Part shown: positions 60,006-62,934 of the stretch, piece after piece
How the letters are laid out: each line of letters opens with the position of its first letter
Position numbering within the stretch: the stretch's first letter is position 1
Assembly: GCA_018692925.1 (NCBI GenBank)
Contig: JABHLH010000019.1
Span: 1-63,321 of the forward strand
Direction of reading: 5' to 3'
Source of the DNA: an archaeon
GTDB taxonomy: Archaea; Nanobdellota; Nanobdellia; SCGC-AAA011-G17; GW2011-AR17
Length of the DNA: 63,321 bases
The notes under the pieces: generated by a model
Told to the model about the DNA's origin: nothing
The model's input: the letters and a program-made list of their open reading frames with translations, nothing else
Database searches by the model: none
Program-made: the position numbers and the translations under genes

Positions 60006-60022
60006 ACGAAATATTTATAAAG
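60006..60022 (+). promoter_or_regulatory. TATA box of the uL3 operon
   Basis: CGAAATATTTATAAAGA is a strong BRE-plus-TATA-like element. Transcription should start near 60040-60045, leaving a leader of about 130 bases before the uL3 ATG. Confidence 0.6.
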
Positions 60023-60051
60023 AGAGTGATTTTTCTGAACTATTAATTATT

Positions 60052-60152
60052 ACTCGCGTTCGCACTATGTGTTGAACACAAGACCGAAAGGTCTTGTTCT
60101 GAGAGGCGAGAAGGTCTAAAGCCTTGAGACCTGCTGTCGACATAAAGACAGG
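60052..60152 (+). ncRNA. Structured leader RNA upstream of the ribosomal operon
   Basis: This 100-base stretch is GC-rich for the genome and packed with complementary arms. P1: CTCGC (60053-57) with GCGAG (60106-110), enclosing P2 TGTGT/ACACA (60068-72/76-80) and P3 AGACC-GAAA-GGTCT (60081-85/90-94, extendable to 8 bp from 60078). P4: AGGTCT/AGACCT (60112-117/127-132). P5: CTGTC/GACAG (60134-138/147-151). P2 and the long form of P3 compete, and AGACC/GGTCT arms of P3 and P4 can swap. It lies between TATA box and ATG of uL3, so it is probably a regulatory leader. I do not recognise a known class. Confidence 0.65.
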
Positions 60153-60172
60153 ATTGAAAATAAAATAGAAAT

Positions 60173-61141
60173 ATGGGAAGAAAACATCATCCAAGACGAG
60201 GGAGTCTGCAATTTTGGCCTCATAAAAGAAGCAAAAAGCATTGTGCTAGAGTTAGAACCTGGGCTACTGTTAAGGAGAATAAATTATTAGGTTTCTTAGG
60301 ATATAAAGTTGGAATGACTCACCTACTAGTAAAAGATAATAATCCTAATTCACATCTTAAAGATAGAGATATATTTACACCAGTTACAGTTATTGAATGT
60401 CCACCTATGAAAGTTTACTCTATAAGATATTACTTAGAAAATGAAGATAATGATCAAGAAATTGTTTCTGAAGTTTTTTCAAAAAAAGTTGATAAAGAAT
60501 TAAAGAGAAAAATTACAGCTTCTAAAAAAGATAATAAAGCACCTGAAAAATTTGATAGAGTTACTGCTACTGTATATTCACAAGTAAGCAAAACTGGAAT
60601 TGGTAAAAAGAAACCAGATCTAATTGAAGTTGGTATTGGCGGAAATGATTTACAAGTTCTATCTGAATATGCTCTAACATTATTAGACAAAGAAATTAAA
60701 ATTTCTGAAGTTTTCAAAGATAGTCAATTTGTTGATGTTCATTCTTTAACAAAAGGAAAAGGTTTTACTGGAGTTATTAAAAAATATGGTGCAAAAAGAT
60801 TAAACCATAAATCCGAAAAGAAAATTAGAGGAATTGGTACATTAGGTGCTTGGACCCCTTCAACAGTTCCATACACTGCTGCACAGCCAGGTAAATGGGG
60901 ATACCATCTAAGGACAGTCTATAATAAAACTAGCGTTAAAGTGGGAAACAAGCCTGAAGAAATCAATCCTAAGGGTGGATTTGTAAGATATGGTTTAGTT
61001 AAGAATGATTATATGCTAATTAAAGGTTCAGTTCCAGGAGCTTCAAAAAGACCTGTGACAATTACTGAAGCAATAAGAATAAAAAATAAAATGTACGATC
61101 AAGAAATTAAATATGTGAGTTTGGAGTCAAAGCAAGGATGA
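60173..61141 (+). CDS. rpl3: Ribosomal protein uL3
   Basis: 322 residues. GRKHHPRRGSLQFWPHKRSK at the start, FLGYKVGMTHLLV, and KGKGFTGVIKKYGAKRLNHK are uL3 signatures. TLGAWTPSTVPYTAAQPGKW and KGSVPGASKRPVTITEAIR complete the archaeal form. It is an early 50S assembly protein near the peptidyl transferase centre. It opens the S10-type operon and overlaps uL4 by 4 bp. Confidence 0.97.
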   Translation: MGRKHHPRRGSLQFWPHKRSKKHCARVRTWATVKENKLLGFLGYKVGMTHLLVKDNNPNSHLKDRDIFTPVTVIECPPMKVYSIRYYLENEDNDQEIVSEVFSKKVDKELKRKITASKKDNKAPEKFDRVTATVYSQVSKTGIGKKKPDLIEVGIGGNDLQVLSEYALTLLDKEIKISEVFKDSQFVDVHSLTKGKGFTGVIKKYGAKRLNHKSEKKIRGIGTLGAWTPSTVPYTAAQPGKWGYHLRTVYNKTSVKVGNKPEEINPKGGFVRYGLVKNDYMLIKGSVPGASKRPVTITEAIRIKNKMYDQEIKYVSLESKQG

Positions 61142-61935
61142 AAACAAAAGTAATTAGTATGATTGGAAAAGAAGGAAAGGAAATAAGTCTTCCAAAACAA
61201 TTTAGTGAAGAATTTAGACCAGACCTAATTAAGAAAGCTGTAATTGCAATTCAATCACATAAAAGACAGCCTCATGGAACAGATCCTGAAGCTGGTAAAA
61301 AAAATTCTGCTTATTTAACAAAAAGAAGAAAAAAATATAAAACAACTTATGATAAAGGTCAAGCAAGAACCCCAAGAAAGGTAATGACCAAGAGAGGATT
61401 ACATTTCTATTTCGTTGGTGCTTTTGTACCTAATACTGTTGGTGGAAGAACTGCACACCCACCTAAAGCTTCTAAAATTTGGGATTTGAAAATGAATATC
61501 AAAGAAAGAAGAAAAGCTATTAGAAGTGCTATCGCTGCAACTATGGATCTTGACAGAATTAAAAAGAGAGGCCATAAAGTTGAATCAAAAGTTTTAGATG
61601 CTAAAATGGAAGACTTAAGCAAAACAAAAGATGTTGAAAAAATGTTAAAAGCTGTAGGATACCAAAAAGAATTAGAAAGATTAGAAGTTAAAAAAATTAG
61701 AGCTGGAAAAGGAAAAAATAGAGGAAGACCACATAGAATTAAGAAAGGTCCTTTATTTGTAGTTTCAAAAACTTGTCCTTTAGTTAAAGCTGCTAAAAAT
61801 TTACAAGGAATGGATGTTTGTTTAGTTTCAAAATTAAATGCTGAATTGCTTGCACCTGGTACAGATGCTGGAAGAGTTACAATCTGGTCAGAAAAAGCAA
61901 TTGAAATAATGGGAAAGGAGAATTTATTTTGTTGA
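61138..61935 (+). CDS. rpl4: Ribosomal protein uL4
   Basis: 265 residues. The internal loop that lines the exit tunnel is present ([20 protein letters not shown] region), together with [20 protein letters not shown] and [14 protein letters not shown]. The length is typical for archaea. In bacteria L4 represses its own operon by binding the leader; whether this holds for the structured leader here is open. It overlaps uL3 by 4 bp. Confidence 0.96.
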
Positions 61936-61937
61936 AA

Positions 61938-62207
61938 ATGGAAGAAAAAGCAAAAGTGGAAATATTGAAGTATCCTTTAACTACTGAGAAGAATGTTCGT
62001 TTAATTCAAGATGAAAATAAATTAGTTTTTATTGTTGATAGAAAAGCAACAAAGCCAGAAATTAAAAAGGCTGCTGAAGAATTTTTTAAGATTAAAGTTT
62101 TAAAAGTTAATACCACAATTTTACCAAGTGGAAAGAAAAAGGCATATTTAAAATTATCACCAGAACATCCAGCATTGGATGTTGCAACAAACTTAGGATT
62201 AATGTAA
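61938..62207 (+). CDS. rpl23: Ribosomal protein uL23
   Basis: 89 residues from ATG 61938, two bases after the uL4 stop; upstream in-frame TTGs at 61929 and 61932 are less likely. [40 protein letters not shown] and [20 protein letters not shown] identify the archaeal protein. It sits at the tunnel exit and is a docking site for SRP. Confidence 0.95.
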
Positions 62208-62208
62208 A

Positions 62209-62934
62209 ATGGGTAAGAGACTAATAACGCAAAGGCGAGGAAGAGGAACAAACACCTACCGTGCACCTAGTCATAGGTATCATGGGAAAATAAACTATAG
62301 AAGGTTAGATGAAGAAGAAAAGACTTCAGTAGTTTATGGTAAAGTAATTGACCTAATCGCATGTCCAGGACATAGTGCACCTTTAGCGAAAATTAAGTAT
62401 GATACTAAAGAAGAAGTTGTTTTATCAGCTCCATTGAATGTAAAAGTAGGAGATGTTGTTGCTTCAGGAGCTTCAGCACCAGTACAAACAGGAAATGTTT
62501 TACCTTTGAAAAATATTCCAGAAGGATCCTTAATCTTTAATATTGAAATTAAACCAGGAGATGGTGGAAAGTTAGTTAGAAGTGCAGGTTCATTTGCAAA
62601 AGTTGTTGGAAAATCAGGAGACAAAATTATTATTAGATTACCTTCAAAAAAACAGAAATTAATGTTGAGTGAATGTAGAGCTATGTTAGGAGTAATTGCT
62701 GGAGATGGAAGATTTGAAAAACCATTATTGAAAGCTGGTACAAAAATGCACGCAATGAGAGCAAGAAACAAATTGTATCCTAAAACTTCAGGAGTAGCTA
62801 TGAACTCAGTAGATCACCCATTCGGTTCTGGTAGAGGAAGGAATGCAGGTAAACCTAAAACTGCACCTAGATTCGCACCAGCTGGTAGAAATGTTGGTTT
62901 AATCAAAGCAAGAAAAACAGGAAGAGGTAAATAA
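62209..62934 (+). CDS. rpl2: Ribosomal protein uL2
   Basis: 241 residues. [20 protein letters not shown] at the start, then [18 protein letters not shown] and [20 protein letters not shown] are uL2 signatures; the last includes the conserved His region near the peptidyl transferase centre. Start ATG 62209 is one base after the uL23 stop. Confidence 0.97.

Follow-up and report, generated by a model that had tools for sequence, protein, structure and literature searches.

The window, by which we mean the whole analyzed stretch of 63,321 nucleotides of archaeal DNA, contains a ribosomal protein (r-protein) operon whose genes, as identified by Pfam, follow the leader described here in the order uL3, uL4, uL23, uL2, and uS19. 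Upstream of the leader lies an archaeal histone gene in divergent orientation. From the TATA box, a transcription start is predicted at ~60043 (±3), and between this box and the uL3 start codon (60173) the predicted transcript part amounts to ~130 nt. The locus comprises the following features:

60014..60021, forward strand: TATA box TTTATAAA, taken from the sequence to be the promoter of the uL3 operon
60040..60052, forward strand: AU-rich 5' end CTATTAATTATTA, a reduced counterpart of the relatives' hairpin A plus UUUAAUA (alignment A3, weak)
60053..60057, forward strand: 5' arm of P1, CUCGC, which in the fold can pair with GCGAG at 60106-60110 and thereby enclose hairpins 1 and 2
60058..60077, forward strand: hairpin 1, GUUC-G-CAC ... 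GUG-UU-GAAC, formed in 10/10 sequences of the window's family
60078..60097, forward strand: hairpin 2, ACAAGACC-GAAA-GGUCUUGU, 8 bp
60097..60110, forward strand: conserved strand UUCUGAGAGGCGAG (columns of alignments A2 and A4), with AGGC at 60104-60107 as the 5' half of the pseudoknot
60112..60132, forward strand: hairpin B, AGGUCU-AAAGCCUUG-AGACCU, with loop GCCU at 60121-60124 as the 3' half of the pseudoknot
60134..60151, forward strand: hairpin C, CUGUC ... GACAG, 21 nt 5' of the start codon
60173..61141, forward strand: uL3 (rpl3), first gene of the operon (PF00297, E 5.8e-67)
61138..61935, forward strand: uL4 (PF00573), a candidate ligand by precedent
61929..62207, forward strand: uL23 (PF00276)
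62209..62934, forward strand: uL2 (PF03947)

The uL3 leader of the window is present in one copy in its genome, and hairpin A itself is absent from 60040..60052. No Shine-Dalgarno match was found in the 40 nt upstream of uL3, the start codon of which sits in an open, A-rich stretch, and the 16S rRNA 3' end (...ATCACCTCCT) contains the usual anti-Shine-Dalgarno sequence. Neither a terminator-like U-run after hairpin C nor a sequestered Shine-Dalgarno sequence was seen.

A possible new structured leader at this position had been predicted from the letters of the window, on the grounds that the region contains several perfect short helices, one of them capped by a GAAA tetraloop, and is GC-rich compared with its flanks. 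All of these helices are present: Between 60052 and 60152 we count seven perfect stems with 5 bp or more, whereas 300 dinucleotide shuffles give an expectation of 2.7, and 2.3% of the shuffles reach seven. They include the tetraloop helix at 60078-60097 (8 bp) as well as 60068-60080, 60112-60132, and 60134-60151, and the alternative AGACC/GGTCT pairings 60081-60117 and 60089-60132 are likewise found. The GC content is 40% in the leader, 29% in the window, and 25% upstream. For 60040-60175, the minimum free energy is -39.9 kcal/mol compared with -24.3 ± 3.5 kcal/mol in dinucleotide shuffles (z -4.5), none of the 200 shuffles being as low, and for 60043-60172 the z-score of -4.7 lies below those of all 98 windows sampled along the contig, the lowest of which is -3.9. 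The structured leader RNA before uL3 is thus real, and the case for a new leader rests on its conservation, its covariation, its position, and the lack of an Rfam match as detailed below.

In the core of the leader, an exposed strand, UUCU-R-AGGCGA, precedes hairpin B, the loop consensus of which is GA-N-GUCU. In the window's family, hairpins 1 and 2 are inserted in tandem before the core strand, which here runs from UUCU through a few A-rich positions to AGGCGAG and leads into hairpin B with its GA-N-GUCU loop. The third inner pair of hairpin 1 changes in a compensatory manner from C-G to G-C (L002) and to A-U (L009), and a hairpin occupies the position of hairpin 2 in 10/10 family members with differing arm sequences. 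Counterparts of P1, either CUUGC/GCGAG or CUCG/CGAG, occur in L003, L009, L010, and L014 and are missing in several members of the same family; a short hairpin after hairpin B is found in many relatives, for example UACUUCUCGAAAGAGAAGUA in L149. This comparison does not support the proposed competition between the helices P2 (60068-60080) and P3 (60078-60097): P2 pairs at 5/5 positions in just 2/10 members, whereas 60058-60077 and 60078-60097 coexist in 10/10, and the conserved hairpin here is 60058-60077 (GUUC-G-CAC/GUG-U-UGAAC) in place of P2. The AGACC/GGTCT arms, which had been thought to pair in two ways, can indeed do so in the window, but the relatives contain no counterpart, their hairpin arms being unrelated. 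By the family comparison, the competing helices are specific to the window and not conserved, and coincidence is the best reading of them. Another kind of competition is possible, in which GCGAG pairs leftward with CUCGC in P1 or, via AGGC, engages in the pseudoknot.

As the original prediction had proposed, uL3 upstream regions of relatives were aligned and inspected for covariation. Such regions were gathered from 57 related genomes and 80 named archaeal records, and within the order the leaders are clearly related. Covariation was assessed on alignments A2 (24 leaders) and A4 (34 model-aligned matches, 32 of them distinct). Double changes in hairpin B affect 4/5 modelled pairs in A2 and 5/5 in A4, all five being compensatory in the latter, in alignments that were made partly by hand and partly by covariance model and are biased towards the structure of that model. 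In A4, 95.7% of the hairpin B cells pair, and 58 cells are double-changed compared with 14 ± 6 in shuffles; controls in which the pairing was slid pair in just 18-57% of cells. The sequence GGCGA is invariant in A2. Its overlapping AGGC forms a 4-bp pseudoknot with the hairpin B loop (GUCU/GCCU) that pairs in 32/32 distinct sequences: The commonest form contains a G-U pair, for which the window and L168 have G-C, and in L061 the A-U pair has become G-C by a double change. Support by covariation is consistent but thin for the pseudoknot because its columns hardly vary. Judged from these alignments, the leader possesses a conserved RNA secondary structure that is backed by covariation.

The distribution of this structure was followed with a covariance model, R1, which represents the 3' half of the leader and matches the window at 60087-60135 (E 3e-9). 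Among the 103 genomes of the order that were searched, 36 contain a match, and in 35 of these it immediately precedes uL3 in the same orientation; adjacency was checked by tblastn for the best 30 and by coordinates for the other five (G021, G008, G000, G031, G033). In each of the 35 genomes, the uL3-proximal copy is the best or sole match. The 36th genome, G066, has its match away from uL3, and the weak matches G066:C17, G020:C2, G009:C43, and G017:C6 (E 1e-4 to 1e-2), all away from uL3, were set aside as chance-like. When 378 genomes of the class, including those of the order, were scanned, no R1 match fell outside the order. The leader family occurs in many groups of family rank within a single DPANN (Woesearchaeota/Nanoarchaeota) order, the hairpin B module is missing in two thirds of the order's genomes, and several relatives have leaders of only ~45 nt. 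A few genomes are devoid of a recognisable full leader, for example G034 (family f18) and G003 from the window's own family.

In other families of the order, the leader has a bipartite 5' module, CCCUACUG ... AGYCGCUGAUUCU, in which a hairpin often lies between the two halves and hairpin B is often missing. The exact bipartite pattern occurs in 17 copies in 17 genomes (reversed-pattern control: 0), all 17 of them upstream of uL3 at ~21 to 90 nt from the start, and the spacing between the halves varies widely from ~5 to 60 nt. In 34/34 cases, the first half begins 30-33 nt downstream of the TATA box and therefore coincides with the place at which the mRNA is predicted to start. We also considered a general initiator element and rejected it: Across 20 genomes, the TATA box combined with CCCTACTG was found at uL3 in 18 of 19 matches. 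In the window's family this part is mostly lost; L011 retains AGCCGCUUAUUCUCAUAGGCGA and so connects the bipartite form with that of the window's family. Considering the 35 R1 matches together with the 17/17 pattern matches, the position of the leader is consistently the predicted 5' UTR of the r-protein operon, and the leader makes a strong case for founding a new Rfam family.

Two peculiarities of individual upstream regions were recorded alongside. In L053, L055, L045, L217, and L218 (families f2 and f7), a TATA-like GATTTATAAA directly follows the AGYCGCTGATTCTAGA element 25-40 nt before uL3; by its placement, this second box could give rise to a uL3 transcript with almost no leader. In L020 (G008), a second copy of the first uL3 codons, ATGGCAGGAGCAAACACAATGCAC, stands 60-200 nt before the gene, and palindromic insertions separate the leader from uL3.

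The leader matches no Rfam family, relaxed E-values included, and only two tRNAs reach threshold in the window. Specifically, neither the window nor the leader matches the Rfam models of the bacterial S10/L4 leaders, and neither the window nor the related leaders match known riboswitch families. Among known leaders, L4-Archaeoglobi (RF03135) comes closest, a predicted archaeal leader rated borderline by its authors (PMC7247131, Eckert and Weinberg 2020). It precedes the same operon, rplC-rplD-rplW-rplB, so that one archaeal leader was already known there, but its sequence and fold are different: L4-Archaeoglobi has its own long closing CUGAC/GUCAG stem around two hairpins, lies several hundred nucleotides before uL3 in L106, and contains neither the AGGCGA strand nor the GUCU-loop hairpin. 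With the E-value relaxed, the RF03135 model still matched neither the window nor seven related leaders, while the positive control L106 was matched. Feedback of r-proteins through leaders is an established rule in bacteria, L4 being named as the ligand of an established leader, and has been proposed for archaea, where S15, eL15, and L4 leaders have been put forward (PMC7247131). As far as the accounts of the archaeal L7Ae k-turn leader go (PMC5539422, PMC6298567), the 5' leader of an r-protein mRNA there binds the encoded protein by means of a k-turn, whereas the core described here is a pseudoknotted hairpin in which no k-turn was identified.

The upstream regions of uL3 in other archaea contain elements of their own. 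Further Woesearchaeota and Nanoarchaeota have a different conserved leader ~40-200 nt before uL3, composed of a 5' GCCUGAAAAG, a variable stem, and a 3' AAUAGGC, with CAGUAC in one subtype and an inner stem that appears to covary by eye (records L070, L071, L074, L079, L082, L086, L089, L100, L118, L125, L127, and L131 as well as L075, L077, L078, L081, L091-L093, L102, and L128). Relatives of Methanoperedens (L103, L105, L108, L113, L120, L124) share a strongly conserved GUCGAUCAAAGUCGGAUUUGAUGAAU...GUAAGUCAAANUCUAUUUGUGAAGAC 100-200 nt before uL3, for which a scan of L103 and L120 returned no Rfam match. Short hairpins with a recurring internal loop precede uL3 in DHVE2, Aciduliprofundum, and Thermoplasmata (L099, L107, L134, L141, L136, L140) and in Methanocaldococcus (L146), the loop being CCAGAC/GUCACGG in the Thermoplasmata group and ACCUGAAAAGCC/GGCAAUGACAGGU in Methanocaldococcus. 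In Methanobrevibacter (L084, L087, L094, L101), a conserved UCAAUGGAAUAUAUUGAAA...AUAUUUAUCUAGUUGUAA lies 100-200 nt before the uL3 start.

In the S10 operon of E. coli, which encodes L3, L4, L23, and L2, one of the operon's proteins feeds back through the L4 leader. The bacterial leader differs from that of the window in lineage, promoter, and fold, and in the latter no downstream terminator or Shine-Dalgarno element was seen. By our estimate, the probability is about two in three that the RNA described here is likewise a cis-acting r-protein leader, i.e., the folded 5' UTR of the uL3-uL4-uL23-uL2-uS19 mRNA, by which a protein of the operon would exert feedback. The comparison demonstrates an RNA fold that is conserved, linked exclusively to uL3, and situated where the transcript is predicted to begin, the loop of hairpin B (GA-N-GUCU) folding back onto AGGC to give the 4-bp pseudoknot. 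From this we infer protein binding, the candidate proteins, feedback, and repression at translation in the following manner: An operon protein present in excess would bind the leader and reduce the output of the operon, most likely by keeping ribosomes from loading at the uL3 start codon. Hindered ribosome loading is favored because there is neither a Shine-Dalgarno match nor a terminator-like U-run after hairpin C. The ligand would most likely be uL3, which is encoded by the first gene, or uL4, for which there is precedent.

An imitation of 23S rRNA, if found, would have indicated uL3. A likeness of the leader to the uL3 site of 23S rRNA (domain VI, helices 94 and 97; ACCCUACUGAUG and GCUGAAAGCAUCUAAGC) was considered, and this candidate was dropped as all sequence tests remained at shuffle level: Four motif blocks, scanned as weight matrices against six 23S genes of the order, gave nothing above shuffles, the unfiltered covariance model reached a best E of 0.89 on the six 23S loci at a site outside the 23S gene, and both a two-block test of the related GCCUGAAAAG leaders and a gapped local alignment of minimal leaders against 23S rRNA ended at shuffle level. 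Mimicry in structure without sequence similarity is conceivable. Given that no 23S sequence similarity was found, nothing points to one ligand. As a separate observation, the 23S genes measure 3625 nt in L036 (G005) and 3242 nt in L035 (G036) compared with ~2900 nt elsewhere in the order, suggesting introns or insertions.

The 5'-terminal place of the leader, fixed relative to the TATA box, the lack of a Shine-Dalgarno match in a highly expressed operon, and the leaders of only ~45 nt in several relatives would also suit an element for constitutive expression, with neither ligand nor feedback, that by its fold protects the mRNA at the 5' end or aids ribosome recruitment. We consider this unlikely, since the unpaired GGCGA, the loop GUCU, and AGYCGCUGAUUCU are kept more strictly than a stability hairpin needs, and since conserved unpaired motifs are found on one operon only and are unused by other promoters. 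Compensatory changes in hairpin B and hairpins 1-2 would be unneeded if the conservation reflected DNA-level operator or initiator sites for a transcription factor controlling the uL3 promoter. Moreover, the halves vary in spacing and accommodate inserted hairpins, and the element, which is unique to uL3, falls within the transcribed part as judged from the predicted start; despite the initiator-like constancy of CCCTACTG at 30-33 bp from the TATA box and the minimal leaders, which show no obvious stem, we therefore hold such sites to be quite improbable. The compact, well-folded stretch could in principle be a small non-coding RNA gene that precedes uL3 by chance, with no leader involved, but its invariable place directly before uL3 on the same strand at 35 + 17 loci, with a TATA box at the 5' end, and the lack of an Rfam match make this very improbable. 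Small-molecule sensing as in a riboswitch, of which the pseudoknotted conserved loop is reminiscent, is scarcely credible either, given that the element occurs only at an r-protein operon and not at metabolic genes, which is the pattern of an r-protein leader.

A wider and rather doubtful reading holds that archaeal uL3 mRNAs generally carry lineage-specific regulatory leaders that go back to a single feedback element of great age. For the DPANN order considered here, the oldest part would be the 5'-terminal CCCUACUGA acting together with AGYCGCUGAUUCU, and the pseudoknotted hairpin B would have been added later, yielding a protein-sensing module not seen elsewhere.

Control of the kind assumed for a self-regulating r-protein leader, which the RNA upstream of uL3 probably is, is known; the RNA itself is new to the databases and literature searched. 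Very few leaders of r-protein operons have been described in archaea, and none were found for DPANN in that literature. The conserved unpaired loops define a precise putative binding site that is amenable to testing. DPANN genomes are among the smallest known, and if the leader works as proposed, even these reduced cells would balance the parts of their ribosomes by feedback at the mRNA.
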